Positions 1,011 through 37,242 of a stretch of DNA of 37,242 bases are shown piece by piece. The notes below the pieces were generated by a model. That model was given only the letters and a program-made list of their open reading frames with translations, made no database searches and had not been told where the DNA came from. The DNA lies in contig NZ_BOOA01000079.1 of assembly GCF_016862995.1 (NCBI RefSeq), positions 1 through 37,242 on the forward strand, written 5' to 3'. Positions within the stretch are counted from its first letter, which is position 1. Each line of letters opens with the position of its first letter. A program made the position numbers and the translations under genes. The DNA comes from Acrocarpospora phusangensis (lineage in GTDB: Bacteria; Actinomycetota; Actinomycetes; Streptosporangiales; Streptosporangiaceae).

Positions 1011-2564
1011 TCATTTGACGAGCAACGCGTGCGGTCTGCCGCGCAGCAGGGTGCCCAGAACGCTGTGCTGCGGCGTGCAGTACGGGCAGGTGGGTGCCGG
1101 ATCGACGCAGACCCTGACGCTGTCGCTGTTGTCGGACGGGTCGAGGTCCAGTTCCGTGGCGCTCGCGGTGGCGGTGTTGACCGTTTCGGCAACTGTGGTC
1201 GCCTTGGCCCGAACGGTCAGCGTGGCCGTGGCGCCGGCGGGGAGCGTGCCGACCGTCCAGGTGTCCTCGGCGTACGTGCCGGTGGTGGACGTGGCCGACA
1301 GGAGGGCGAGCCCGGCCGGCAGCGGGTCCTCGACCACGACGCCGGTGGCGTCGTTCGGCCCGGCGTTGCGGACGGCCACGTGGTAGATGATCATTCCGCC
1401 GGCGGCGACCCGGGTCCGCTCGGCGGTCTTGACCACGCTCAGGTCGACGGCCGGGTTGACCTCGGTGACGGTGTCGCCGCTGGTGGAGGTCAGCGGTTCG
1501 GGTTCGGCGCCGAGCCGGTTCTCATAGGTGACCGTGCCCTGGTTGGCGACCTGCTTGCCCGCGGCGGCCAGGCCGACCTTGACCCGGAACTCGACCGTGG
1601 TGCCGTCGGGCAGGGCGTCACTGTCGGGCAGCCGCCCCCCGTCCCCCAGCATGAAGGTGATCTTGCCGGTGGCGGGGTCGAACTCGGCCTGGTCGTCGCC
1701 GGCCTGGTCGGTCTTGGCGCCGCTGCCGGGGCCGTCGACGATCTGGAGCGAGCCGGGCACGAAGGCGGTCCCCGCCGGGACGGTGTCGGTGAGGCGGACG
1801 TCGCCCGCCGCGTCGCCGCCCCTGTTGACGGCGGTCAGCCGGTAGGTGATCTCCTCGCCGACGTTCACCGGCCCCCGCGGGCTGGCGGTCTTGTTCACGA
1901 CCACGCACGGCGCGGTGCCGAAGAAGACGTCGTCGAGGAAGTTGCCGTACGTGGGGTTCCCCCCGGTGGCGGAGACGGAACGGAAGGCGAACCGGGTGGT
2001 CGTCATCCCGGCGGGCACGGTGTAGGTGCCGGTGTACGTGCCCCACTTCGTGGTGCCGTCGGAGGCGATCGCCTGCTGGGCCGGGCCCGCGGGATCACCG
2101 ATGTCCAGCGCCAGCGTGTCGGTCCCGAGACGGCCGCGGTGGGACAGCCGCCAGTACAGCTTCTGCCCCGGCGTGGTCGGCCGATCCTGGTACAGGGTCG
2201 CGACCTGGGTGGCGTTCAACTCGGCGAACTGGTTGCCCTCGACGGGCGGGACGCCCATCCGGGTGCTCCAGATCTCGATCAGATGATCGGTGGAGGTCGT
2301 CCGCCAGCCCGGCACCGCGTTCGGGCGGCTCTGCGAGGCATCGGGGAACGAAGCCCACGCCCCGCCGGTGACGACGGGCTGTTCGAAGCCGCCGTTGACC
2401 AGCGCCACTCGCTCCGGACATGTGGCCGGATCCGGTAGCCGGGCCGGGCCGGCGTACGCCTGGGCCGGCGCGGTGCCGGCCAGCACCACATCGGGCAGCG
2501 TCAGCGGCAGGGCCGTCGCCGCCAGGGCGGCAACCGGGTAGAGCATCCTGCGGATGTGCTTCAT
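1011..2564 (-). CDS. Secreted DUF11 repeat surface protein
   Basis: Exported protein of 517 residues. The ATG at 2564 is chosen because AGAGGA sits 8 nt upstream; an in-frame start further upstream lacks such a site. Residues 1 to about 35 are a signal peptide (MKHIRRM, hydrophobic Ala/Leu core, Ala-rich cleavage region). A jelly-roll-like region follows with NGGFEQP, PGW and EGNQFAELN, the pattern of carbohydrate- or surface-binding modules in secreted bacterial proteins. After that come two DUF11 repeats, one starting VVNKTASP and one starting DLSVVKTA, each with the T/EDxxPAG signature. The C-terminus has a CxxC pair (CPYC) and no LPXTG or membrane anchor. DUF11 domains are Ig-like stalk modules of cell-surface proteins; no enzymatic activity is evident. 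Ligand unknown. Confidence 0.85.
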   Translation of the reverse strand: MKHIRRMLYPVAALAATALPLTLPDVVLAGTAPAQAYAGPARLPDPATCPERVALVNGGFEQPVVTGGAWASFPDASQSRPNAVPGWRTTSTDHLIEIWSTRMGVPPVEGNQFAELNATQVATLYQDRPTTPGQKLYWRLSHRGRLGTDTLALDIGDPAGPAQQAIASDGTTKWGTYTGTYTVPAGMTTTRFAFRSVSATGGNPTYGNFLDDVFFGTAPCVVVNKTASPRGPVNVGEEITYRLTAVNRGGDAAGDVRLTDTVPAGTAFVPGSLQIVDGPGSGAKTDQAGDDQAEFDPATGKITFMLGDGGRLPDSDALPDGTTVEFRVKVGLAAAGKQVANQGTVTYENRLGAEPEPLTSTSGDTVTEVNPAVDLSVVKTAERTRVAAGGMIIYHVAVRNAGPNDATGVVVEDPLPAGLALLSATSTTGTYAEDTWTVGTLPAGATATLTVRAKATTVAETVNTATASATELDLDPSDNSDSVRVCVDPAPTCPYCTPQHSVLGTLLRGRPHALLVK

Positions 2565-2725
2565 GATGATGTTCCTCTCGATGGGCGGACTTCGTCCGTC
2601 CACCAGCGCCGGAGGATCGGCGCTGGCACCACACCGCAGGTTCGCGTGAGTGGATCACCAGAGGGGATGTGACACGTACCGCGCTGCCAATACTTGGCAC
2701 GATCTTGTTTGTAGGCGGCGCGGGA

Positions 2726-24675: not shown

Positions 24676-25779
24676 TCACACCACCTCGACCCGCGACTTC
24701 GCCCCGTCGAGCGTGAGCCGGAGAACCGGCGCGATGGTCCCGCCGAAGGCGGCCCGCGCCGTCTTCTCGGGACCGTCGTTCCGGTAGTTCAGGAAACTCA
24801 CCGCCCGGAGATCGTCCAGCACCACCCAGGCGTACGCCTGATCAGGCTGGCCGGCGGGGTTCCCGATGACCAGCCCCGAACCGTTGACCGGCTCGTACGG
24901 CCCGGCCAGCCGGGGCGCCACGAACCCGTACAGGCCGGTGGGCGCCGCCCCCACCGGCTCGAACGACTGGCGCTGGGTGCAGAAGAACAGGTAGTACGAC
25001 GAGTCGTGGAAGACGATGTGCGGCCGTTCGATCTCCCGGTTGACGCCGTCCGCCGTCAGCAGCGGCGCACGAAGCGACCAGCCCTCGCCGTCTTCGCCGG
25101 CCAGCGCGACCGCGCCCATGTAACGGTCACCCCACGGCACCGAGGCGGCGATCAGCAGATGAGCGCGGCCGTCGGCGGGGTCCCGGAACCAGGCGGGATC
25201 ACGCCAGGCCCGGATCTGCCCGGGTCCTCCCCGGATCTCGTCGGCCGGCACGTACGTGTGCCCGTCCGGACGTACGAGCTCCCGATGTCCGGAGGTCTCT
25301 TCGAGCGCGACCCGGTCACCGTCGGCCACCAGCGCCATCCGGCTTTCGACGACACGCTGGAGGAAGGTCCGCGGCTCCTCGCCGCGTGATCCCGCGGCCG
25401 TGTAGAACACCAAGATCGTGCCGTCCTGCCGCCGGATCGCCGATCCCGACCACTCGCGGCTGCCCGGGGAGACTCCGTCGGCGAAGACGTTCCCCAGGTC
25501 GCGCCAGCCCGTGCCGGTCTTCGCCATCAGCCGGATTCTGGCCACATCGTGCCGTTCCTCCGGATGCCCGACGGCGGGAGCGGTCAGGCCCATCCACACC
25601 TCGTCGCCGAGGATCACCGACGTCGAGCCGTCCTCCTCCTGGATCGGCCACATGTCCCAGACGTCCAGGTCCAGGAGCCGTTCGGGCGTGCCCAGGATGA
25701 GCGGCGCGGTGGTGGCGGGGTCGTCGGCGATGAGATCGAGGTGGTGCCGGGTCCAGCGGGCAGGCTGGGCTTGCGTCAT
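24676..25779 (-). CDS. GH68 beta-fructofuranosidase, apparently cytosolic
   Basis: Enzyme of 367 residues with the GH68 (levansucrase/invertase) active site. The nucleophile is Asp42 in DVWDMWP, followed by EWSGSA (109-114), the transition-state-stabilising Asp194 in WRDPAWF, and acid/base Glu251 in NREIERPHI. GH68 enzymes cleave the fructosyl bond of sucrose and transfer fructose to water or to a growing fructan. Most are secreted, but here the protein starts MTQAQPARWTRHHLDL with no signal peptide. It ends an ABC-transporter operon and overlaps the ROK kinase gene by 4 nt (ATGA). The likely role is therefore intracellular hydrolysis of imported sucrose or short fructosides. It is shorter than typical levansucrases. 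Hydrolase rather than polymerase is inferred. Confidence 0.88.
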   Translation of the reverse strand: MTQAQPARWTRHHLDLIADDPATTAPLILGTPERLLDLDVWDMWPIQEEDGSTSVILGDEVWMGLTAPAVGHPEERHDVARIRLMAKTGTGWRDLGNVFADGVSPGSREWSGSAIRRQDGTILVFYTAAGSRGEEPRTFLQRVVESRMALVADGDRVALEETSGHRELVRPDGHTYVPADEIRGGPGQIRAWRDPAWFRDPADGRAHLLIAASVPWGDRYMGAVALAGEDGEGWSLRAPLLTADGVNREIERPHIVFHDSSYYLFFCTQRQSFEPVGAAPTGLYGFVAPRLAGPYEPVNGSGLVIGNPAGQPDQAYAWVVLDDLRAVSFLNYRNDGPEKTARAAFGGTIAPVLRLTLDGAKSRVEVV

Positions 25780-26669
25780 GGTCGGTGCGCTCGCTTCGTT
25801 CGTTCCAGGGCCTCGCGGGCCAGTTCCACGGCTCCCGTGACCCCGGACAGGTCACCGAGAGCCGGCGTTACGAGGTATTCGTCCATGGCGGGCAGGTCAC
25901 CCGGGTACCCACCGGCCAGGTCGAGCAGGCGGGCCCGTACCAGGTCGAGCAGGGAGGGCCGCTTGGCCACACCCCCACCGATGATCACACGCTGCGGCGA
26001 AAGCGTATAAGTCAGGTTGAGTACGGCCAGAGCCAGATACTCGGCCTCAAGCTCCCAAGCCGCGGCATCGTCCACCTGCTCGGCCGGCCGGCCCCACCGC
26101 TTCCGCATGGCGCTCCCGGAGGCGAGCCCTTCCAGGCAGTCTCCGTGGAAGGGGCACGACCCCGCGAACGGGTCACGACCCAGGTCATGCGGAATGCGCA
26201 TATGTCCGGCTTCGGGGTGGGTGAGGCCGTGCAGCGGACGACCGTGCACGACGGCTCCCATGCCGATGCCCGTGCCCACGGTGATGTAGACGACCGTGTC
26301 CAGACCCTGGCCCGCGCCGTACCGCCATTCGCCGAGCGCGGCCCCGTTCACGTCGGTGTCGAACCCGACCGGGATCCCCAGAGCCTCACGCAGCGGCGTG
26401 ACCGTGTCGGTGTTCGCCCACCCCGGCTTCGGCGTAGTCGTGATATATCCGTACGTCGCCGAGCCGCGATTCAGATCCACCGGCCCGAAACTGGCCACCC
26501 CGACCGCCACCGGCGCCTCGCCCCGCTGGAAGAACCGTACGGCGGCGGGAATGGTCTCCGCCGGGGTGGTAGTCGCGATGACCTCGGTCGTCAGTACTTG
26601 TCCGGTCTCGTCGGCGAGGGCGCACACCCATTTCGTGCCCCCCGCCTCGACAGCTCCGTAGATCGGCAC
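25776..26669 (-). CDS. ROK-family fructokinase
   Basis: Sugar kinase of 297 residues, most like the fructokinases of the ROK family. GTG 26669 begins MPIYGAVEAGGTKWVCAL, the usual fructokinase start with its ATP-binding loop. FDTDVNGAALGEW and VVYITVGTGIGMG contribute to sugar and phosphate binding. The zinc motif CPFHGDCLEGLASG is complete with an upstream His in GHMRIP. It should phosphorylate the fructose freed by the GH68 enzyme, whose gene overlaps it by 4 nt. The preceding permease stop lies only 6 nt upstream. Glucose or mannose as substrate cannot be ruled out. Confidence 0.93.
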   Translation of the reverse strand: MPIYGAVEAGGTKWVCALADETGQVLTTEVIATTTPAETIPAAVRFFQRGEAPVAVGVASFGPVDLNRGSATYGYITTTPKPGWANTDTVTPLREALGIPVGFDTDVNGAALGEWRYGAGQGLDTVVYITVGTGIGMGAVVHGRPLHGLTHPEAGHMRIPHDLGRDPFAGSCPFHGDCLEGLASGSAMRKRWGRPAEQVDDAAAWELEAEYLALAVLNLTYTLSPQRVIIGGGVAKRPSLLDLVRARLLDLAGGYPGDLPAMDEYLVTPALGDLSGVTGAVELAREALERTKRAHRP

Positions 26670-26675
26670 CGCGTA

Positions 26676-27500
26676 TCAGCCCTTCAGTGAACCCTGAAGC
26701 AACGCCGTCACGAAGCGCCGCTGAAAGATCAGGAAGATCACCAGGGTAGGCCCCAGAATGAGCAGCGACCCAGCGCACAGCAGCGGAATGTTGGTTCCCC
26801 ACTGCCCCTGGAAGGCCCCCAGCGCACCGGACATGGTGCGATTCAGGGGATCGTCCACCAGCACGATCGCCAGCAGGAACTGGTTCCACGTCCACAGGAA
26901 CAGCAGGATGGCCAGCGACGAGGTCGCCGGGACGGCCAGCGGCACGTGCACCTTCCAGAACAGCTGCCACACGTTCGCGCCGTCCATCCGGGCGCTCTCG
27001 GAGAGTTCCTCTGGCATGTTCACGAAATGCGCCCGCATCCAGAACACCGAGAACGGCATGAACAGCCCCACCAGCGGCAGGATGATCGCCCATCGCGTGT
27101 TGAGGATCCCCATGTCGCGCACCAGGTAGTACAGCGGCGTGATGATCCCCTCGAACGGCAGGGTCAGGCCGAGCACAAACGCCAGGAAGGCGATCTGCCG
27201 TCCCGCCATCCGCAGATGGCCGATGGCGAAGCCCGCCATGGTGGCCACGACCAGCGAGATGGGCACCACACCGAGCACGATGAGCGCGCTGGACTTCAGC
27301 AGTTCGCCCATGCGCGCCGCGGTGAAGGCGTCCGCGAAGTTGCCCCACTGCGGGTCGCTGGGCCAGTCCAGCCCCAGCGGGTACGTGCCCGACGGATGCA
27401 GGGCCGTGACGAACAGGCTGACGAAGGGCATCAGGGTGACCGCCATCAGCAGGACGAGCAGCACCCGTCCCGTCCAGGCCTCCCGGCGTGCGAAGATCAT
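26676..27500 (-). CDS. ABC sugar transporter permease (second subunit, MalG type)
   Basis: Membrane subunit of a carbohydrate ABC importer, 274 residues, six predicted membrane segments. ATG 27500 overlaps the upstream permease stop by 4 nt (ATGA), which fixes the start. The EAA loop that contacts the ATPase reads EELSESARMDGANVWQLF. It ends VTALLQGSLKG, the common MalG-type ending. No ATPase gene lies in the operon; actinomycete carbohydrate importers often use a shared MsiK-type ATPase encoded elsewhere. Substrate inferred from the neighbouring GH68 and fructokinase genes: sucrose or a small fructoside. Confidence 0.94.
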   Translation of the reverse strand: MIFARREAWTGRVLLVLLMAVTLMPFVSLFVTALHPSGTYPLGLDWPSDPQWGNFADAFTAARMGELLKSSALIVLGVVPISLVVATMAGFAIGHLRMAGRQIAFLAFVLGLTLPFEGIITPLYYLVRDMGILNTRWAIILPLVGLFMPFSVFWMRAHFVNMPEELSESARMDGANVWQLFWKVHVPLAVPATSSLAILLFLWTWNQFLLAIVLVDDPLNRTMSGALGAFQGQWGTNIPLLCAGSLLILGPTLVIFLIFQRRFVTALLQGSLKG

Positions 27501-28435
27501 GAGGTCCTGTCCCTGGTGAGCCACTGGATGGGCAGCGCGCACGCGATCACGAGCACGGTCAGGATCACGGCCAGCGCCGAGGCCAGCCCGACCTGGCGTT
27601 CAGAGAAGGCCAGGTAGTAGATCTCCAGCCCGGGCACCATGGTCGAGTTGCCCGGCCCGCCCTGGGTGGCGATGTAGACGATGTCGAAGCTGGCCAGCGC
27701 CGCGATCACGGTGACCGTCACGCAGACCCCGATCTCCTGGCGCAGGCTCGGCAGGGTGATCGAGAAGAACTCGCGGAACGAGCCGGCCCCGTCGAGCCTG
27801 GCCGCCTCGTACAGCGCCGGGTCGATCTTGCTCATGCCGGCCAGCAGGAGCAGCGTGCACAGGCCGAGCAGCACCCACGCGCCGATCACGCCGACGGCCG
27901 GCAGCGCCGTCGAGAAGTCGCCCAGCCAGGCCCGGATCACCCCGTCCAGTCCCACGTACGACATCAACTGGTTGATCAGGCCGTTCGACGAGAGCAGCCA
28001 GCTCCAGGTGATGCCCGCCGCGACCAGCGGAATGACCTGCGGCAGGAAGATCACCGTACGGGCGACGAGCGCGAGCCGGCTGGCGGCGATCCGCCGGATC
28101 GTGCTGGCGATGGCCAGGCCCAGGACGACCGGGATGGCGCTGAAGAACACGATCAGCTTGAACGCGTTGACGATCGAGGCGAACAGGTCGGGATCGGTGA
28201 AGACCTTGAGGTAGTTCTGCGTGCCCGCCCACGTGGAGGCCCCGATGCCGTCCCACCTGTACAGCGAGTACTGCACGGTGAGGGCCAGCGGCTGGAGCAC
28301 GAAGACCGCGTAGAACGCGAAAGCGGGGAGGACGAAGAGCCAGCCGACCCAGCTCGGCCCGCGGAGCCCCTTCCGGCGGAAGGGGCTCCGTGCCGTCGCC
28401 GCGGCTGCCGTGGTGTCGGTAGTCGGCCGCGTCAT
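27497..28435 (-). CDS. ABC sugar transporter permease (first subunit, MalF type)
   Basis: Membrane subunit of the same importer, 312 residues, six membrane segments after a Thr/Ala-rich cytosolic lead (MTRPTTDTTAAAATARS). The EAA loop reads DPALYEAARLDGAGSFREFF. ASFDIVYIATQGGPGNST is the usual pre-terminal signature of MalF-type sugar permeases. Its ATG is 5 nt after the binding-protein stop. It pairs with the permease encoded at 26676-27500, with which it overlaps by 4 nt. Confidence 0.94.
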   Translation of the reverse strand: MTRPTTDTTAAAATARSPFRRKGLRGPSWVGWLFVLPAFAFYAVFVLQPLALTVQYSLYRWDGIGASTWAGTQNYLKVFTDPDLFASIVNAFKLIVFFSAIPVVLGLAIASTIRRIAASRLALVARTVIFLPQVIPLVAAGITWSWLLSSNGLINQLMSYVGLDGVIRAWLGDFSTALPAVGVIGAWVLLGLCTLLLLAGMSKIDPALYEAARLDGAGSFREFFSITLPSLRQEIGVCVTVTVIAALASFDIVYIATQGGPGNSTMVPGLEIYYLAFSERQVGLASALAVILTVLVIACALPIQWLTRDRTS

Positions 28436-28440
28436 CGGGG

Positions 28441-29802
28441 TCAGTTCCCCCCGACCTGGCTCACGTAGTCGGACTGGACGGACTTCAGCAGCCCTTCGGG
28501 CGTCTGCTCCCCGGCCACCAGCTTCTGCAGGTTCGGCGTCCAGCTCTTGGCGTAGATCGCGCCGGTGGCGTTGGCGATGAAGTCCATCGCGCCGTTGTCC
28601 TTGGCGATCTGCGCGCCCGCGGCCAGCGTGCTCTCGGTCACGGTGCCGGGCGCGATGGCGGGCATGGGCGCGTCGGCCGGGCCCATCGGGTGCGACCCGC
28701 CGACCTCGACGCCGATCTTGCGGGCTTCGGCGTTGGTGGCGACCCAGTTGAGGAAGGCGGCGGCGCAGTCGGCGTTGGCCGCCCGCGCGCTGATGCCGAA
28801 GGTGAGCGGAGCGGACATGGCGGCCCTGGCGCCGTCCTGTCGCACCGGCGGCATCAGGAAGAAGCCCGCGTTCCCGGCCATCTGCTTGTCCAGGTTGCCG
28901 GACTCCCAGTCGCCGTTGAACATGAACAGGCCGTCGCCCTCGATGAAGCGGCTCATCATCGTGGCGTAGTCGACGGCGTTGACGTCCTTCCAGAAGTAGC
29001 CGGCCTTGATCCAGCGCTCCAGGTGCTGGGTGGCCTGCAGGTTGGCCGGGGTGTCGATCGAGGAGCCGGGCTTCTGGAAGATCCAGTCGTTGACCGGTCC
29101 GGGCGGGCCGTACGCGGCCATGAGGTCCTGTAGCGGGAAGGCCAGGCCGCCGGTCGCGCCGCCGTTGAACTGGGCGATCGGGGTGACGCCCGCCTCCTTG
29201 GCCTTGGCCAGGGCGTCGTCGAGCTCGGCCAGGGTCGCGGGGGCCGCGGCCATGCCGATCTGCTCGGCGAGCTTCTTGTTGTAGAAGACGCCGGTCATGC
29301 TGAAGTTGAGGCCCATCGCGTACAGCGAGCCCTCACCGCGGACCGCGCCGCCTGGCGCGAGACGCATCTGCTCCAGCTGGGAGGGGGGCCACTGGTCCCA
29401 CCCGAAGAGCTTCGCGTACTCGTCCAGGTTCTTCAGCAGGTTGTTCTTGACGAGTTCGGAGACCTGGGGGAGCCGCATGAGGTCCGGCGGGTCGTCCGCC
29501 AGCACGCGCGGCGCGTTCTGGGTGATCACCGCGAACTGGTCCTCGCGGATGTCCCAGGTGACGTTCGGGAACTGCTTGGTGAACTCGGTGGTGAGCGACT
29601 TCGGCACCGGGAACCCGGTCTCGAAGTACGCCTTGAGCGTGACCGGCGCCGTGCCGCAGGTCGGGGCCGCCGTCAGGGCGGAACCGGTGGCCTGCGGCTG
29701 CGGTTCGCCGCTTCCGGGCGCGCCGCATGCGGCGGCCAACGTCCCCCCCAGGACGGCCGCGAGCACGGGGCGGTGCCAGCGGGACTGAACTCGACGAGAC
29801 AT
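28441..29802 (-). CDS. Extracellular solute-binding lipoprotein for sugars
   Basis: Periplasm-side binding protein of the ABC importer, 453 residues. ATG 29802 has GGAGGAG 7 nt upstream. The signal peptide ends in a lipobox-like LAAACGAPGSG, so it should be lipid-anchored at Cys. Family 1 solute-binding features follow: VTLKAYFETGFPV, FPNVTWDIREDQF, DDPPDLMRLP, GVFYNKKLAEQIG, and an aromatic-rich ligand region with MFNGDWESGN. First gene of the fructoside operon; a palindromic operator lies about 55 nt upstream and the regulator is divergent. Confidence 0.94.
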   Translation of the reverse strand: MSRRVQSRWHRPVLAAVLGGTLAAACGAPGSGEPQPQATGSALTAAPTCGTAPVTLKAYFETGFPVPKSLTTEFTKQFPNVTWDIREDQFAVITQNAPRVLADDPPDLMRLPQVSELVKNNLLKNLDEYAKLFGWDQWPPSQLEQMRLAPGGAVRGEGSLYAMGLNFSMTGVFYNKKLAEQIGMAAAPATLAELDDALAKAKEAGVTPIAQFNGGATGGLAFPLQDLMAAYGPPGPVNDWIFQKPGSSIDTPANLQATQHLERWIKAGYFWKDVNAVDYATMMSRFIEGDGLFMFNGDWESGNLDKQMAGNAGFFLMPPVRQDGARAAMSAPLTFGISARAANADCAAAFLNWVATNAEARKIGVEVGGSHPMGPADAPMPAIAPGTVTESTLAAGAQIAKDNGAMDFIANATGAIYAKSWTPNLQKLVAGEQTPEGLLKSVQSDYVSQVGGN

Positions 29803-29856
29803 GGTGCGTCTCCTCCGGTTAATCGGGACTGTGGCGTGCGCCATCCCGGGACCACT

Positions 29857-29876
29857 TTGCTAATACGGTTTAGCAA
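29857..29876. promoter_or_regulatory. LacI-type operator of the fructoside operon
   Basis: Inverted repeat TTGCTAA-N6-TTAGCAA, 7-bp perfect arms, in the 147-bp divergent region between the binding-protein gene (start 29802) and the LacI gene (start 29950). Its size and symmetry are right for a LacI dimer, and it could control both directions. Confidence 0.75.
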
Positions 29877-29949
29877 TGCGATAGTCTCACCGTGCGTATC
29901 CGGTGGTGTCAAGGTCCAGAAACATGGATCGCAGCGGGGAGGTCTCTCG

Positions 29950-31008
29950 GTGAGCGCACGACGGGTCACGCTGGCGGATGTGGCCCAGGCCGCCGGCGTG
30001 TCCAGGACCACCGCCTCGCTGGTGCTGACCGGGCGCGGGCGTGAGCTGCGCATTTCCCTGGACGTGGAGCAGCGGGTGCTGCGCGCCGCCGACGAGCTCC
30101 GCTACCGGCCCAACGCCGTCTCGGTCGGGCTGCGTACCGGCACGACCCGCACGATCGGCTTCGTGTCCGACACCGTCGCGACCTCGCGGCTGGCCGGCGA
30201 CATGATCAAGGGTGCGCTGGAGGCCGCGCGGGAACGCGGCGTGATGCTGTTCATCGGTGAGACCGAGGGCGATCCCGACCTCGAGGGCGGCCTGCTCCAC
30301 GCCATGCAGGACCGGCAGGTGGACGGGATCATCCTGGCCGCCATGTACACCAGGACGATCAAGGTTCCCAAGGACATCGCGGCCTCGCCCGCCGTTCTGC
30401 TCAACGCCCTGCCCAAGCAGCCGTCGCCGCTGCCGTCGATCCTGCCCGACGAGGTCGAAGCCGGCCGGGCCGCCGCCCGGGTGCTGCTGAAGGCCGGCCA
30501 TCGGGAGGGCATCCACCTGATCGGCGTGGGGCCCGGCACACGGAATGTGCCGCCGCAGAGCGTCGCGGCCGTGGAACGTCTGACGGGCATCCGCGAGGTT
30601 TTCCGGGAGGCCGGAGTCAAGATCGCCAGCGGGCGGGTCTGCCGCGACTGGCAGCCGGAGGAAGGTCTGCTCGCCACCCGGGAGATGCTGGCGAGCTTCC
30701 GTCCCCGTGCCCTGATCTGCCTGAACGACCGGATCGCGTTCGGGGCGTACCAGGCGTTGAGCGACGCCGGGCTGAGCGTTCCCATGGACGTGTCCGTCGT
30801 CTCGTTCGACGATCATCCGCTCGCGTCGTGGATGCGGCCCAAGCTGACCAGCGTGGCCCTGCCCCACTACGAACTGGGCCGCAAAGCCGTGGACGTGCTG
30901 TTCACCGAGATGGGCCGGGACGGAGTCGCCGAAGGCCACCGCGGCGAGGTGCACCGCGTCCCCATGCCGGTACGCGACCGCGAGTCGGTAGCGCCACCAG
31001 CTGAATGA
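29950..31008 (+). CDS. LacI-family regulator of the fructoside operon
   Basis: Repressor of 352 residues. GTG 29950 has GGGGAGG 7 nt upstream. The HTH is complete: VTLADVAQAAGVSRTTASLVL, with the hinge region ending near YRPNAVSVGLRTG. The sugar-binding domain follows (TIGFVSDTVATSRL, VDGIILAAMYTR, PRALICLNDRIAFGAYQAL, VVSFDDHPLASWMRPKLTSV). It is divergent from the importer genes and should repress them until an imported sugar or its product binds. The effector is inferred to be sucrose, fructose or a fructose phosphate. Confidence 0.94.
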   Translation: MSARRVTLADVAQAAGVSRTTASLVLTGRGRELRISLDVEQRVLRAADELRYRPNAVSVGLRTGTTRTIGFVSDTVATSRLAGDMIKGALEAARERGVMLFIGETEGDPDLEGGLLHAMQDRQVDGIILAAMYTRTIKVPKDIAASPAVLLNALPKQPSPLPSILPDEVEAGRAAARVLLKAGHREGIHLIGVGPGTRNVPPQSVAAVERLTGIREVFREAGVKIASGRVCRDWQPEEGLLATREMLASFRPRALICLNDRIAFGAYQALSDAGLSVPMDVSVVSFDDHPLASWMRPKLTSVALPHYELGRKAVDVLFTEMGRDGVAEGHRGEVHRVPMPVRDRESVAPPAE

Positions 31009-31062
31009 ACCCGGTCTTCACGCTCCTCCACGATTCGGCTCTGATGTGTTCGCCGCGTGAAA

Positions 31063-31097
31063 CCGAGGTGCGGCGGAGGGGTCCCGCCGCACCTCGG
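31063..31097. terminator. Bidirectional hairpin terminator
   Basis: Perfect 14-bp stem (31063-31076 with 31084-31097) and a 7-nt loop, between the convergent LacI gene (stop 31008) and xylanase gene (stop 31137-31139). Confidence 0.8.
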
Positions 31098-31136
31098 GTC
31101 CTTCTCACCGGGAGCGGGTGAGTCGACGGGCGCCGG

Positions 31137-32687
<1,551 letters not shown>

Positions 32688-33148
32688 TTTGAGGTTTCAA
32701 GCCCTCTGCGGTCGGGAGGGCTTATGTGTCGCGGAGTACATCGAATGGATGCACCCGGCGTCAACGAGGCGTCGTCCACGCCTGTCGCGCGGCCGCGCGC
32801 CATGTTTCCCGGCTTGGCCTTTTGCCCGGTGAAGGACAGGTCACCGAGCGCGAAGCGGTGTAAGTTTCACAGAAGTCCCCTTGTCGTGCGCCATAGATTT
32901 CGGGCTCCGGCCGCGAAACTTCACTACGGATATCGCCGATGCCGCTGGAGGGACTTCTTCGCTGACGGGATCACTGTTTCGCCACTGATGGGCCTGTGGG
33001 CGTTCTCAAGGGGGAAGCCGGAGTCTGAGCGAAACGGTGAGCGGCGGGTCGGCGCGGATGTAGCCGGAGGTCGCGGGGGTGCGGGAGCTGTGCTCTCGGC
33101 TGATGCGGCTCTGGGGTTCGTTCGGTCCGCCCACTCCGGGATCGGCCG

Positions 33149-33163
33149 TCCGAAAGTTTCGGA
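33149..33163. promoter_or_regulatory. CGAAAGTTTCG-type operator upstream of LacI gene
   Basis: Perfect 15-nt inverted repeat TCCGAAA-G-TTTCGGA, about 125 nt before the LacI gene. The core CGAAAnTTTCG is the pattern reported at xylanolytic genes of streptomycetes (BxlR/XlnR-type LacI sites). Autoregulation is the simplest reading. Confidence 0.65.
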
Positions 33164-33288
33164 AGGTATTCCGACATTTTCTAGACGGCAATACCGGAGT
33201 CGCTTTCGGCTTATCTGCCGATATCACAGTTCAGACAGCATAAACGCGCATGATCGGATGCCGAAAGAGTTGCGGGTAGACTGCGCCC

Positions 33289-34329
33289 ATGACCGCGACT
33301 GAGGAACCGTACGTCGGCGACTCCGTACCCTCACAGCCGCTGACGCTGGCTCAGCTCGCGGCACTGGCCGGTGTGTCCACGGCGACCGTCTCCAAGGTGG
33401 TCAACGGCCGTTCCGAGGTGGGCCCCGAGACCAGGGTCCTGATCGAGGGTCTCATCCGCGAGCACGGCTACCGGAGGCAGCGGCGCGTCAAGGCGGCCGG
33501 GCTGATCGAGCTGGTCTTCCACGAGCTGGCGGGGGACTATCCGATAGAGGTGGTCAAGGGCGTACAGCAGGTGGCTCGGCCGCATGGCCTCGCGGTGGCG
33601 CTCTCCGAGCTGGGCGGCAGGCACACGCCGGGGCACAACTGGATCGAGGACGTGCTCAGTCGTCGCCCGAGTGGTGTGATCACCGTGTTCTCGGGGCCGA
33701 CCGAGGAGCAGCGCGCCCAACTGGCCACGCGTGAGGTCCCCCTGGTGGTGCTGGATCCGGCCGGCGAGCCGGGGATCGGTGTGCCGTCGGTGGGCGCGGC
33801 CAACTGGAGCGGCGGCCTGGTGGCCACCCGTCATCTGCTGGAGCTTGGCCATCGCCGGATCGCGGTGATCACCGGCCCGGATTTCGCGCTCTCCAGCCGG
33901 GCCCGCCTGGACGGATACCGCGCGGCGCTCGACACCGCCGGCGTCCCGATCGATCCCGACCTGATCTGCCCGGGCACCTTCATGATCGAGGACGGTCTGA
34001 CCCACCTGCCCCGGCTGATGGAGCTGCCCGACCCGCCGACCGCGGTCTTCACCTGCAACGACGGTCAGGCGATGGGCGTCTACCACGCGGCCCACGAGCT
34101 GCGGCTGCGCATTCCCGACGATCTGAGCGTGATCGGCTTCGACGACATGCCCGCGTGGCGGTGGGCCATCCCGCCGCTGACGACGATCCGTCAGCCGCTG
34201 ACGGAGATGGGGACCATGGCGGCCGCCATGCTGATCACCCTGGCCCAGGGGGAGCCGTTGCAGCAGAACCGCGTCGAACTGGGCACCGAACTCGTCGTCC
34301 GGGGCAGCACGGCACCTCTCGTACGGTAG
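33289..34329 (+). CDS. LacI-family regulator, probably of xylan use
   Basis: Repressor of 346 residues. ATG 33289 has no SD; TAGACT lies 7 nt upstream, so a leaderless transcript is likely. The HTH is complete (LTLAQLAALAGVSTATVSKVV, GPETRVLIEGLIREHGY). The sugar-binding domain has IELVFHELAGDYPIEVVKG, RPSGVITVFSG, SVGAANWSGGLVATRHLLELG, TAVFTCNDGQAMGVYHAA and VIGFDDMPAWRWAIPPLTTI. Proteins with this YPIEVVKG and ANWSGG pattern are, in my recollection, often near xylan or arabinan genes. The nearest enzymes are the divergent xylanase and the CE15 esterase downstream, with similar GAAA/TTTC elements upstream of both; that link is inferred. Confidence 0.94.
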   Translation: MTATEEPYVGDSVPSQPLTLAQLAALAGVSTATVSKVVNGRSEVGPETRVLIEGLIREHGYRRQRRVKAAGLIELVFHELAGDYPIEVVKGVQQVARPHGLAVALSELGGRHTPGHNWIEDVLSRRPSGVITVFSGPTEEQRAQLATREVPLVVLDPAGEPGIGVPSVGAANWSGGLVATRHLLELGHRRIAVITGPDFALSSRARLDGYRAALDTAGVPIDPDLICPGTFMIEDGLTHLPRLMELPDPPTAVFTCNDGQAMGVYHAAHELRLRIPDDLSVIGFDDMPAWRWAIPPLTTIRQPLTEMGTMAAAMLITLAQGEPLQQNRVELGTELVVRGSTAPLVR

Positions 34330-34431
34330 CCCGATATCCGGGGACAGTCGGGCGGGCTGGCCATTAACGAAATCTCCCGATCGATTTCTACTTTCGGCTT
34401 GTGGCACCTCCCGACTTTGGAACCGCAAAGG

Positions 34432-34467
34432 CGAACGCCTCGCCCCTTCGTCAGGGCGAGGCGTTCG
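34432..34467. terminator. Bidirectional hairpin terminator
   Basis: Perfect 14-bp stem (34432-34445 with 34454-34467) and an 8-nt loop. It closes the LacI gene (stop 34329) on the plus strand and lies 9 nt past the stop of the 39-residue peptide gene on the minus strand, which supports that tiny gene being transcribed. Confidence 0.8.
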
Positions 34468-34476
34468 TGTGTCGGG

Positions 34477-34596
34477 CTATTCCCGGCGTTTCAGGTTGGC
34501 GATGAGGTCGCGGAGCCGGTGCCGTACGGAGGGGAAGGTGAGGGCGATCAGTGCCAGCATGACTAGGCCGAGGCCGATTTCCACGGATCTAGACAT
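34477..34596 (-). CDS. 39-residue single-pass membrane peptide
   Basis: Very small gene, not characterised as far as I know. ATG 34596 overlaps the stop of the upstream 70-residue gene (ATGTCTAG), suggesting coupled translation. The product starts MSRSVEIG, has one membrane helix (GLGLVMLALIALTFPSV, about residues 8-24), and ends in a basic amphipathic helix (RHRLRDLIANLKRRE). The stop is followed within 9 nt by a perfect hairpin terminator. The layout, a short helix with a positive tail, is like small membrane regulators or type I-like toxins, and also like small actinobacterial proteins of no known role. No SD strong enough for independent initiation. Confidence 0.65.
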   Translation of the reverse strand: MSRSVEIGLGLVMLALIALTFPSVRHRLRDLIANLKRRE

Positions 34597-34801
34597 AGGC
34601 GCCGGGGCTCTCGAGGAGGACTTCGTTGGGAGCGTTGTGCATGGTTTTCCTCGTGAGGCGGATGGTTATCGAGGCATTGTTCCCGCTCTTCTCACCCGTG
34701 GCGATAGTTTTCGGAACTCCGACGACGAAAGGTGAGGAAACGCCGTTGCAGGGGTCGCCTGGGCAGTTTTGAAATACCGGCGAGTCGTGTTTCGCGATCA
34801 T
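34589..34801 (-). CDS. Small 70-residue protein, first gene of a two-gene unit
   Basis: Unrecognised protein. ATG 34801 has AGAGGG 7 nt upstream, a good SD. It is hydrophilic, without signal peptide, with a CPGDPC pair near residues 13-18, a beta-like stretch PFVVGVPKTIATGE, then NNASITIRLTRK. An internal ATG (34642) with GAGG 6 nt upstream could also start a 17-residue peptide in the same frame (MHNAPNEVLLESPGAYV), which would be the size of a leaderless small peptide or RiPP-like precursor; no RiPP enzyme is near. Translationally coupled to the 39-residue membrane peptide. Divergent from the secreted repeat-protein pair with 52 bp between the starts. Confidence 0.6.
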   Translation of the reverse strand: MIAKHDSPVFQNCPGDPCNGVSSPFVVGVPKTIATGEKSGNNASITIRLTRKTMHNAPNEVLLESPGAYV

Positions 34802-34853
34802 TCAATTACCCTCTGTTACGATCGGCCCGGGGTCGTAGACGGAGGGGGCAGCA

Positions 34854-35258
34854 GTGAGGGCATGGGTACGGGCGGTTGTCGTCGCCACCGCCGGATGGGG
34901 AGCGTTCCTGAGCGCTCCCGCCGTGTGGGCCGACTCCCCGGCCAGCGAGCGTTCGCAGCTTGCCCGTCTCCTCGGGGCCGACCTCGGCAACGTGTTCGAG
35001 GCGCTGCCCGCCGTCCTGTGCGGCAACCGGCTGATCAGTTACAACTCGCCGACGAGCAACTCGCCGGTCACCTGCGTCAACGGCCCCGCCAACAGCGGCA
35101 ACTCGACCGACAGCGGCAACTACTCCAGCCGTGGCAACCCCGTGAACAGTGGAAACTTCTCCAACACCAACGGGTCCCACGGGAGCAGCAACTCGTCGAA
35201 CGCCGACAACCTCGCGAACGGCCCGCAGGAGACGTCCATCAAGCAGGCCATTCGATGA
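34854..35258 (+). CDS. Secreted Asn/Ser/Gly 12-residue-repeat protein A
   Basis: Exported protein of 134 residues. GTG 34854 has GGAGGGG 6 nt upstream. The signal peptide ends near SAPAVWA (residue 26). A short globular part follows (SQLARLLGADLGNVFEALPAV) with Cys pair VLCGN and VTCVNG, then a low-complexity tail with a 12-residue period: TDSGNYSSRGNP, VNSGNFSNTNGS, HGSSNSSNADNL, ending ANGPQETSIKQAIR. The Cys-Gly-Asn ... Thr-Cys-Val-Asn spacing recalls chaplins only loosely. The regular Asn/Gly/Ser turns suggest a beta-solenoid or amyloid-like stack; a cell-surface role is inferred. It overlaps gene B by 4 nt. Confidence 0.75.
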   Translation: MRAWVRAVVVATAGWGAFLSAPAVWADSPASERSQLARLLGADLGNVFEALPAVLCGNRLISYNSPTSNSPVTCVNGPANSGNSTDSGNYSSRGNPVNSGNFSNTNGSHGSSNSSNADNLANGPQETSIKQAIR

Positions 35259-35551
35259 TGATCCTGTATGTCGCCGCCCTGGCCTTCGCTTCGGTCGCCG
35301 CTCCCGTGGCGGGCGATCCGACCTGCTGTGTGGTCAACCACGGCCATTCGCATCACATGGGCAACCATCGCAACAGCGGCAATTACCACAGCGATACGAA
35401 CAATATCAACAGCGGCAACTACTCGAACACCGACGGTTCGATCAACAGCGGTAACTCCTCCATCAGCTCCAACAACGCCGACGGCCCGCAGCGCATCATC
35501 ATCACCGACCGCTTCGTCAAGAGGAGATGCGTCCTCAAGCGGAGCTGCTGA
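35255..35551 (+). CDS. Secreted Asn/Ser/Gly 12-residue-repeat protein B
   Basis: Exported protein of 98 residues, coupled to gene A by an ATGA overlap. The signal peptide (MMILYVAALAFASVAAPVAG) is followed by a Cys pair (PTCCVV) and a His-rich stretch (NHGHSHHMGNHR) that could bind a metal. Then three 12-residue repeats: RNSGNYHSDTNN, INSGNYSNTDGS, INSGNSSISSNN. It ends with the same closing as gene A (NADGPQ) and a basic Cys-containing tail (FVKRRCVLKRSC). The match in period and ending shows A and B are related. Function unknown; probably a paired structural or surface component. Confidence 0.75.
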   Translation: MMILYVAALAFASVAAPVAGDPTCCVVNHGHSHHMGNHRNSGNYHSDTNNINSGNYSNTDGSINSGNSSISSNNADGPQRIIITDRFVKRRCVLKRSC

Positions 35552-35955
35552 GCTCTCCGGCCGGAAGAGCTTCATGATCGGCTGGGATTGTCGGAGCGGT
35601 GGGATACGGTCTCTCCATCACGACACGCTCGGCTGCGGCATTCGAGCAAGGTGCTTCGGTGTGAGATAACCGGTCCGGCATAGTCCCTGAAGGCCGGTGT
35701 GGTGGCGACGTGTGCGCGCGGGAGTGGGCGCCCATCCCGGCGGTAGTGAAACTTTTCGGAGCGCTGGGGGTGGCTGGGGAAACCCTGCCTACTATTCAGC
35801 TAGTTTCCGAAACGTTCTGTGCCGGTATGGCGGTATGCCCAGCTCAACCCGGCAATTCGAGATCATTCTTTGAAAGTTTTCGACGTCCGCGTTGACGGCT
35901 TTCGAACGGATTCACACACTGAGCGCCTACACCCCACCGGGAAGGGAGAGCCCTA
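35552..35955. other. 400-bp intergenic region with GAAA/TTTC elements
   Basis: No gene supported. A weak 6-bp hairpin follows gene B (35551-35571). Three GAAA/TTTC symmetric elements lie upstream of the CE15 gene: GAAACTTTTC (35748-35757), GTTTC-C-GAAAC (35803-35813, perfect) and GAAAGTTTTC (35872-35881). They resemble the LacI-type operator at 33149-33163. Confidence 0.5.
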
Positions 35956-37242
35956 GTGATCATCAGCTTGGGCCGTTCTAGGATCCGTTCGAGGGTCATC
36001 GCGCTGACGACAGCGGTGACGCTCTCGTTCGCTGGAGCGGTGACGATAGCTTCCACCGAAGCCGCCGCGGCCATTGGAGTTGAAAACGAGGGCGCCGACT
36101 GTGCCGTGCCCACCCTGCCCGACGCAGGGTCTTTGCCCACGAATACCAGGCTCCCTGACCCCTTCAGGAAGATGAACAATACGCGCATCACCGCCAAGTC
36201 CGAGTGGCGATGCCGGCGGGAAGAGATCAAGAGGCTGGCGGAGCGCTTCGTCTACGGGGAGAAGCCGCCGAAGCCGACGACCGTCACGGGCACCGTGTCG
36301 AACACCAGCATCTCGGTGAGCGTGAACCACAACGGCAGAAGCTCCAGCTTCTCGGCGAGCGTCTCCCTGCCGAGCGGCACCGGGCCTTTCCCGGCCGTCA
36401 TCGTCTATGGCGGATTCGGCGCGAACACGAACGCCATTCGAGCCGCCGGCGCCGCCGTGATCAACTACGACCCCTATGTGGTGGGGCGTGAGGGCACGCC
36501 GCGGAACAACAAGCAGGGCGCGTTCTACACCATCTACGGCAATACCAGCGCGACCGGACTCCTGCAGGCCTGGGGCTGGGGCGTGAGCCGGATCATCGAC
36601 GTCATCGAGCAGTCGGGCGGCAACATCCTGAAGCCGGACGCGACCGGCGTCACGGGCTGCTCCCGGTTCGGCAAGGGCGCCTTCGTCGCCGGCGCGTTCG
36701 ACCAGCGAGTCGCGCTGACCATGCCGATCGAGTCGGGGACCGCCGGCGTACCGATCTTCCGCGGGATTCCCGGGGAGGGCGCCCAGAGCCTGAGCAGCGC
36801 GTACGGCGAGCAGCCGTGGTTCGGCGACGCGTTCGGCACCTTCACCGGCAGCCCGACCAGGCTCCCGGTGGACACCCACATGACCGTGGCGATGATCGCG
36901 CCGCGTGGCCTGTTCATCATGGACAACCCGCACATCGCCAACCTGGGTCCCCGGTCCGCGAGCGTGGCGGCTCTGGGTGGGCAAGAGGTCTACCGGGCGC
37001 TCGGCGCGGGTGACAACATCACCTACTGGTCCGACGTCGCGGACGGCACCCACTGCGCCAACAGGTCCGAGTGGGCGACCCCGCTCACGCAGAACATCCA
37101 GAAGCACCTGACCAAGACGGGCAACGCCGCCGGCACCATGCGGATCTCGTCGCGGGCCTCCGGCAACCTGGCCGAGTGGCGCGACTGGACCACGCCGACC
37201 CTCACCGACGGCAGCCCGAGTCCGACCGACACCACCCCGCCC
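35956..37242 (+). CDS. CE15 glucuronoyl esterase, 3' end outside the window
   Basis: Secreted esterase that splits ester bonds between lignin alcohols and 4-O-methyl-glucuronic acid on xylan. GTG 35956 has GGGAG about 8 nt upstream. A signal peptide ends near STEAAAA (residue 39). The catalytic domain carries the CE15 serine motif GVTGCSRFGKGA with Ser236, the acidic residue Glu259 in MPIESG, and His366 in DGTHCANRSEW; all three are visible. The frame is still open at the window end in a Pro/Ser/Thr linker (TDGSPSPTDTTPP), so a binding module probably follows. It complements the two GH10 xylanases in opening glucuronoxylan attached to lignin. Confidence 0.94.
   Translation, partial: MIISLGRSRIRSRVIALTTAVTLSFAGAVTIASTEAAAAIGVENEGADCAVPTLPDAGSLPTNTRLPDPFRKMNNTRITAKSEWRCRREEIKRLAERFVYGEKPPKPTTVTGTVSNTSISVSVNHNGRSSSFSASVSLPSGTGPFPAVIVYGGFGANTNAIRAAGAAVINYDPYVVGREGTPRNNKQGAFYTIYGNTSATGLLQAWGWGVSRIIDVIEQSGGNILKPDATGVTGCSRFGKGAFVAGAFDQRVALTMPIESGTAGVPIFRGIPGEGAQSLSSAYGEQPWFGDAFGTFTGSPTRLPVDTHMTVAMIAPRGLFIMDNPHIANLGPRSASVAALGGQEVYRALGAGDNITYWSDVADGTHCANRSEWATPLTQNIQKHLTKTGNAAGTMRISSRASGNLAEWRDWTTPTLTDGSPSPTDTTPP

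Follow-up and report, generated by a model that had tools for sequence, protein, structure and literature searches.

Introduction

What is known of surface assembly on aerial hyphae comes mainly from Streptomyces. The rodlins RdlA and RdlB, of 131 and 133 residues, are described as a homologous, secreted and non-redundant pair, both members of which are needed for rodlets; in solution both are disordered, and RdlB converts to fibrils (PMC5314377). According to the same account, the amyloid region of RdlB, residues 17-42, is polar and includes QYFGNSMTTGNMS (PMC5314377). In a review, obvious rodlins are reported from streptomycetes only (PMC4255298).

Here, two overlapping genes of Acrocarpospora phusangensis, designated A and B, are compared with these systems. 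They form a conserved pair that is homologous through a module of hexad repeats and differentiated at the ends, A carrying a two-Cys loop and B a hydrophobic stretch with a basic tail. The A/B family and its hexad module appear to be new; the kind to which they would belong is a known one, namely small surface proteins secreted by sporulating actinomycetes. For sporulating actinomycetes other than Streptomyces (Nonomuraea, Herbidospora, Acrocarpospora and relatives), the pair offers a small, deletable surface-layer candidate, and the seven-hexad unit a compact test case for the assembly of asparagine-rich sequences.

Organization of the locus

The window, that is, the whole stretch of 37,242 nucleotides analysed, belongs to the 9.1-Mb genome of A. 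phusangensis. Features of the A/B region were as follows.

34432-34445 and 34454-34467: perfect inverted repeat (14-bp arms, 8-base loop) that separates the LacI gene from the divergent ORFs, 3′ of the 39-residue ORF; possibly a terminator, without a long T run
34477-34596, minus strand: divergent ORF of 39 residues, judged to lie outside the system
34589-34801, minus strand: divergent ORF of 70 residues, judged to lie outside the system; starts 2 bp from the conserved block of A
34804-34823, plus strand: 20-bp block AATTACCCTCTGTTACGATC, a probable promoter element, 30 bp from the start codon of A
34854-35258, plus strand: gene A, 134 residues (signal peptide, Cys-loop region, hexad module and short tail)
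34854-34931, plus strand: putative signal peptide of A, MRAWVRAVVVATAGWGAFLSAPAVWA, assigned by eye, as is its probable cleavage site
35019-35075, plus strand: Cys loop of A, CGNRLISYNSPTSNSPVTC (C56-C74), with a possible disulphide
35097-35222, plus strand: repeat module of A, seven hexads, consensus G-N-[SFY]-x-N-S
35255-35551, plus strand: gene B, 98 residues, ATG start at 35255, overlapping A as ATGA
35255-35314, plus strand: putative signal peptide of B, MMILYVAALAFASVAAPVAG, assigned by eye, without a basic n-region
35360-35485, plus strand: repeat module of B, seven hexads in register with those of A
35492-35548, plus strand: tail of B, RIIITDRFVKRRCVLKRSC, a hydrophobic stretch followed by basic residues

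Gene A starts with GTG at 34854 and is preceded by a Shine-Dalgarno (SD) sequence, GGAGGGGG, at 34841-34848. The sizes and ATGA overlap of A and B that had been read from the sequence were found in the window, and A and B are probably translationally coupled via this overlap. A second operon, A′B′, is located on a different contig of the same genome and shows the ATGA overlap too.

A and B are small coding genes, with GC3 values of 0.88 and 0.85, respectively. pN/pS was calculated for the window and 14 of the 31 loci described below. For A, the means were 0.53 in Acrocarpospora, 0.40 in Herbidospora and 0.37 in one Nonomuraea clade; for B, they were 0.80, 0.45 and 0.59, with values from 0.54 to 1.12 across Acrocarpospora pairs, some exceeding 1. 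A is under clear purifying selection and B under weaker purifying selection.

Seven aligned Acrocarpospora sequences show the 20-bp block to be conserved ahead of A and of its paralogue A′, where it is close to GAYTACTCTCTGTTACGATC and lies 27-30 bp 5′ of the gene. Searching five Acrocarpospora genomes with three mismatches allowed yielded eight sites, seven of which precede A genes, compared with one site for the backward control; as the pattern was derived from those same sites, all that this search adds is the near absence of the block elsewhere in the five genomes. The remaining site (L149) precedes an unrelated ORF of 199 residues. The block is not apparent in Herbidospora or in the other upstream alignments, and a sigma-70 scan of the upstream region found no promoter.

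Two divergent ORFs opposite A had been grouped with A and B. Both ORFs exist; their membership was not supported. In 40 relatives and the own genome, the 70-residue ORF gave weak matches only, in seven other genomes (best E 0.0069 at 35% identity), and no match was obtained for the 39-residue ORF at E ≤ 0.1. Neither was found beside other A loci by tblastn (E ≤ 0.1 in one search, E ≤ 1e-3 in another). Their GC3 values were 0.73 (70 residues) and 0.80 (39 residues), below the range of 0.85-0.90 covered by A, B and their two neighbours. The divergent ORFs look lineage-specific or spurious. As to the terminator assigned to them, the 14-bp inverted repeat does follow the 39-residue ORF, but the terminator scan, which requires at least 5 T, lists no terminator at 34432-34467.

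Positions 24676-37242 of the window correspond to a plant-polysaccharide locus, encoding a GH68-like protein, a sugar ABC transporter (solute-binding protein and two permeases), a GH10-CBM2 protein, a LacI regulator and a glucuronyl-esterase-like protein (PF22244) that runs off the contig end. In relatives, A/B loci have neighbours other than plant-polysaccharide genes. Elsewhere in the window (1011-2603, minus strand), an ORF of 530 residues contains two DUF11 stretches and possibly encodes another surface protein.

The hexad repeat module

A and B have in common a block of 42 residues, consisting of seven hexads each, roughly G-N-[S/F/Y]-x-N-S, and followed by a conserved x-Q. The hexads are GNSTDS, GNYSSR, GNPVNS, GNFSNT, NGSHGS, SNSSNA and DNLANG in A, and GNHRNS, GNYHSD, TNNINS, GNYSNT, DGSINS, GNSSIS and SNNADG in B. 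Without gaps, 24 of the 42 module positions are identical; when B was shuffled 20,000 times, the number of identities averaged 7.1 and never exceeded 16. By profile comparison (hhalign), A and B are homologous with a probability of 99.6%.

Autocorrelation was calculated for lags 2-19, with p values uncorrected for the 18 lags. Peaks were obtained in A at lags 3 (p = 0.018), 6 (p = 0.031) and 12 (p = 0.007), and in B at lag 12 (p = 0.0002), lag 6 giving p = 0.087. Among the 196 hexads of 28 A proteins, G occupies position 1 in 136, N position 2 in 158, N position 5 in 136 and S position 6 in 103. The 12-residue repeat of the sequence-only reading is present in A and B, but the unit is more aptly described as a hexad, a 12-mer being two hexads. 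The ending that A and B were said to share is kept as N/D-G-x-Q in most members. Over 31 A proteins, the module is composed of 21-38% N, 10-26% S and 14-26% G, and of the 18 columns that are invariant among these proteins, 14 fall inside it.

Outside the module, the two proteins differ. In A, the signal peptide is followed by the stretch LxRLxGADLGxV, the two-Cys loop and the repeat. In B, a short signal peptide is followed by the repeat and the hydrophobic-basic tail. As to the Cys-bearing domain noted in the window A, two Cys precede the module in 30 of the 31 A proteins, the remaining one having a single Cys. Of the characters ascribed to B, the basic tail was retained (24 of the 27 B rows carry a net charge of at least +2), whereas a His-rich stretch, defined as three or more His within the 15 residues before the module, was found in one of the 27 rows, the window's own, and a tail Cys in nine.

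Family and structure searches

The window A and B gave no Pfam match at E ≤ 1. In NCBIfam, A matched GIVxVP (E 0.0018, 18.2 of the 35 bits required) and B gave two matches (E 0.07-0.1), all below the curated cut-offs. In PHROGs, a collection without cut-offs, the window B weakly matched phrog_13161, a phage family of unknown function (E 0.0033, 18.1 bits). Running Pfam against every row gave eight families for A (best E 0.016) and four for B (best E 0.026), each in one or two rows. At E ≤ 1, none of the 31 A rows or 27 B rows matched a left-handed beta-helix hexapeptide or pentapeptide repeat family in Pfam. A had no match in plasmids, the A alignment none in viral contigs and B none in phage records. 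In solved structures, a single match was obtained (E 1.1), at profile positions 15-51, outside the repeat. A limited search of the literature on Streptosporangiaceae surface proteins and on NSGN or asparagine-rich repeats gave no description of the A/B family. Thus, for the family libraries and literature searched, the earlier statement that the repeat pair matches no described family was borne out.

AlphaFold2 (AF2) models had a mean pLDDT of 49.5 for A and 46.7 for B, with no strand assigned and no confident fold. Helices were placed in A at residues 3-18, in the signal peptide, 35-55 and 128-133; B had no element. Over the repeat, block pLDDT was 37-48 for A (31-row alignment) and 43-45 for B (27-row alignment). 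The beta-solenoid suggested by the regular repeat is thus unsupported, and the A and B monomers are likely disordered.

Distribution and pairing

A/B profiles matched 19 of 200 sampled Streptosporangiaceae genomes, or 18 after one doubtful match had been dropped (G090, E 5e-4, with an internal stop; this genome was then counted with the 182 others). In a sample of the order, 26 of 297 genomes matched A, all of them Streptosporangiaceae; in a sample of the class, this was the case for 5 of 394, one of which (G674) lies outside the family. A scan of species genomes yielded 31 A loci: 28 in Streptosporangiaceae (Nonomuraea 14, Herbidospora 7, Acrocarpospora 5, Microtetraspora 1 and Thermocatellispora 1) and three in Streptomycetaceae (Actinacidiphila, Streptacidiphilus and Streptomyces, one each).

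A profile search for co-occurrence had been proposed for A, B and the divergent ORFs together; it linked A with B, and the divergent ORFs were absent beside other A loci. Of the 28 Streptosporangiaceae loci, 26 have B next to A: 25 as a separate ORF (14 with the 4-base overlap) and one, in Thermocatellispora (L059), as an A-B fusion of 214 residues. No B neighbours the A of Nonomuraea maritima (L051), and the B of N. thailandensis (L052) looks broken. Outside the family, a partner with the same module is situated downstream in tandem in L072 and convergently in L071 (both Streptomycetaceae) and in G674, while in Streptomyces humicola (L073) a short A-like ORF stands by itself. In the partners of L072, L071 and G674, the repeat is preceded by a Cys...Cys-[V/A]-NGP element like that of A. 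This suggests that B descends from an A-like gene and that its Cys loop was lost.

A tree of the modules was built from 44 columns, a small number for its 60 rows. In this tree, the 26 B modules from Streptosporangiaceae fall on one side of a branch with support of 80/88, below the firm-support mark of the tool, and the sub-groups of B resemble those of A. Together, these patterns are suggestive of one old duplication and joint inheritance since. The fused locus L059 was omitted from alignments A3 and A4, the latter also being without L051, L052, L071 and L073.

Gene context was compared over 33 loci. Apart from A/B (33 of 33) and an antisense shadow (23), no ORF cluster was common to more than 12 of them; smaller shared clusters came mostly from the seven Herbidospora. 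Since there is neither an accepted family match nor another gene travelling with A and B, no enzyme, toxin-immunity pair or transporter is suggested.

One genome, G130, has two additional B-like ORFs (L141, 3274-3711, plus strand; L142, 3444-4022, minus strand), whose long basic tails are of the RRVIVRRVIARRVINKR type. A pattern scan found no A-like ORF beside either.

Proposed explanation and alternatives

By analogy with RdlA and RdlB, A and B may be secreted, disordered and self-associating surface proteins that act as a pair, a reading to which we give an even chance. Both proteins would be exported by Sec and the monomers would stay largely disordered. On the cell surface, the hexad modules would self- and co-associate, by a polar ladder or by amyloid-like stacking; amyloid-like polymerisation is plausible and compatible with the composition and with the lack of a predicted fold. 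The basic tail of B could hold the assembly to the anionic envelope, and the Cys loop of A could serve as a second interface. A more specific version is put forward tentatively and carries a lower probability: a two-component polymer forming an ordered layer on the aerial hyphae or spores of those Streptosporangiaceae that carry the genes, B acting as nucleator and anchor.

The paired surface reading draws on the position of B beside A in the Streptosporangiaceae loci, including the fusion, on the partners with the same module in L072, L071 and G674, and on the A/B profile match together with the grouping of B in the module tree. An upstream block nearly private to A/B operons in Acrocarpospora also argues for a system of A and B. 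The lack of a confident AF2 fold is compatible with disorder, and the rodlins are described as disordered with RdlB forming fibrils (PMC5314377). Against this reading, a low-confidence AF2 model says little on assembly, and in Acrocarpospora B has the high mean pN/pS given above, while the signal peptide of the window B has no basic n-region. The pairing is weakened by L051, L052 and L073, in which B is missing, broken-looking and missing, respectively.

Instead of assembling into fibres, A and B could be a hydrophilic matrix or protectant, that is, disordered Asn/Ser/Gly proteins, soluble or bound to wall or polysaccharide, that retain water or protect against desiccation. The very polar module, the absence of a confident fold and a basic tail on B that could bind the wall would fit this. 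However, the register and the Asn, Gly and Ser positions are kept more tightly than a mere hydrophilic linker needs, as seen from the concentration of invariant columns in the module, and the pairing with a differentiated homologue also speaks against such a role. We regard this explanation as unlikely.

A folded beta-solenoid, of the hexapeptide type or with two sheets, acting as a surface or adhesive protein, agrees with the periodicity of 3, 6 and 12 residues and with the Asn residues that recur, ladder-like, at positions 2 and 5 of the hexads. Left-handed beta-helix hexapeptides have an aliphatic core position and 18 residues per coil. The A/B module lacks such a core position, its 42 residues amount to little more than two coils, and the models show low pLDDT over the repeat and no strand, which makes this fold improbable. 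We give a similarly low probability to a secreted antimicrobial or signalling peptide pair, such as a two-peptide bacteriocin or pheromone precursors. A and B are indeed small, probably exported, co-directional and overlapping, but no other ORF cluster travels with them in the 33 loci, and their sequences are strongly conserved across genera, where diversification would be expected.

Metal binding by the pair, through the His-rich stretch and Cys tail of B, was considered in view of the motifs HGHSHH, CC and CVLKRSC in the window B; with the former restricted to this one row and the latter to a third of the B rows, it is very improbable. That A and B are not genes at all and represent repetitive non-coding DNA read as ORFs, as the low complexity of the repeat and the B pN/pS values in Acrocarpospora might suggest, is the least probable explanation and hardly tenable for A, given protein-level conservation in two families, GC3, the mean pN/pS of A, the SD and upstream block, and the paralogous operon A′B′.

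Comparison with known systems

Judged by sequence, A and B are neither rodlins nor chaplins. No PF03777 match was obtained at E ≤ 1 in the 31 A or 27 B rows. Chaplins (PF03777, ChpA-C) resemble A and B in being secreted actinomycete surface proteins and in the CGN...C element; the A/B module differs in being hydrophilic. Chaplin domains were detected in 159 of the 200 sampled Streptosporangiaceae genomes, namely in 18 of the 18 A/B genomes versus 141 of the 182 others (one-sided Fisher p = 0.013, uncorrected for phylogeny). As 141 of the 159 chaplin-bearing genomes have no A/B match, A and B are not generally needed beside chaplins. In the own genome, a 654-codon open frame (L035, G000:C50:19153-20460) contains eight chaplin-domain matches in a row above the cut-off, separated by G/N-rich linkers. 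This frame differs from what Streptomyces has, which is short and two-domain chaplins.

No curlin family was matched in Pfam at E ≤ 1 by any of the 31 A rows or 27 B rows. CsgB has repeats in common with CsgA, and its end is basic. In curli, CsgA is described as the major subunit and CsgB as its nucleator partner (PMC7766987). The likeness of A and B to curli is conceptual only.

Rodlins were compared using 40 listed ORFs; 38 of these, 121-159 residues long, entered the hhalign comparison and 21 the search profile. No homology was detectable, the hhalign probabilities against the 38 rodlins being 2.7% for A and 13.7% for B, which counts against rodlin likeness in the strict sense and leaves a resemblance of kind. 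In rodlins, the GN region precedes Cys...Cys, whereas in A the order is reversed, the Cys loop preceding the GN hexads. Rodlins also lack the seven-hexad module, and in the loci examined their genes are divergent or tandem, whereas A and B are co-directional and often overlapping. The rodlin profile, which recovered eight of eight Streptomycetaceae known to have rodlins and held out of the profile, found none in the 200 Streptosporangiaceae genomes, the own genome included (at most 21 candidates scored per genome among the matches listed), nor in the genomes of L071 and L072, both carrying A and a partner. Two genomes outside the family, G674 and S. humicola, carry A together with rodlins, so that A/B is no simple swap for rodlins.

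The likenesses are nevertheless several. A and B are likewise two homologous small proteins encoded close together, A is close to RdlA and RdlB in length, and rodlins have two conserved Cys, as does A. In the polar region published for RdlB (PMC5314377), QYFGNSMTTGNMS repeats GN after six residues, the same GN-x4-GN spacing as in the A/B hexads. This hexad-like spacing, as well as the presence of chaplins in all A/B genomes of a family in which no rodlin was detected, is in favour of a rodlin-like reading. In such genomes, with chaplins present and rodlins undetected in the family, the role of A and B on aerial hyphae or spores would resemble that of RdlA and RdlB beside the chaplins.
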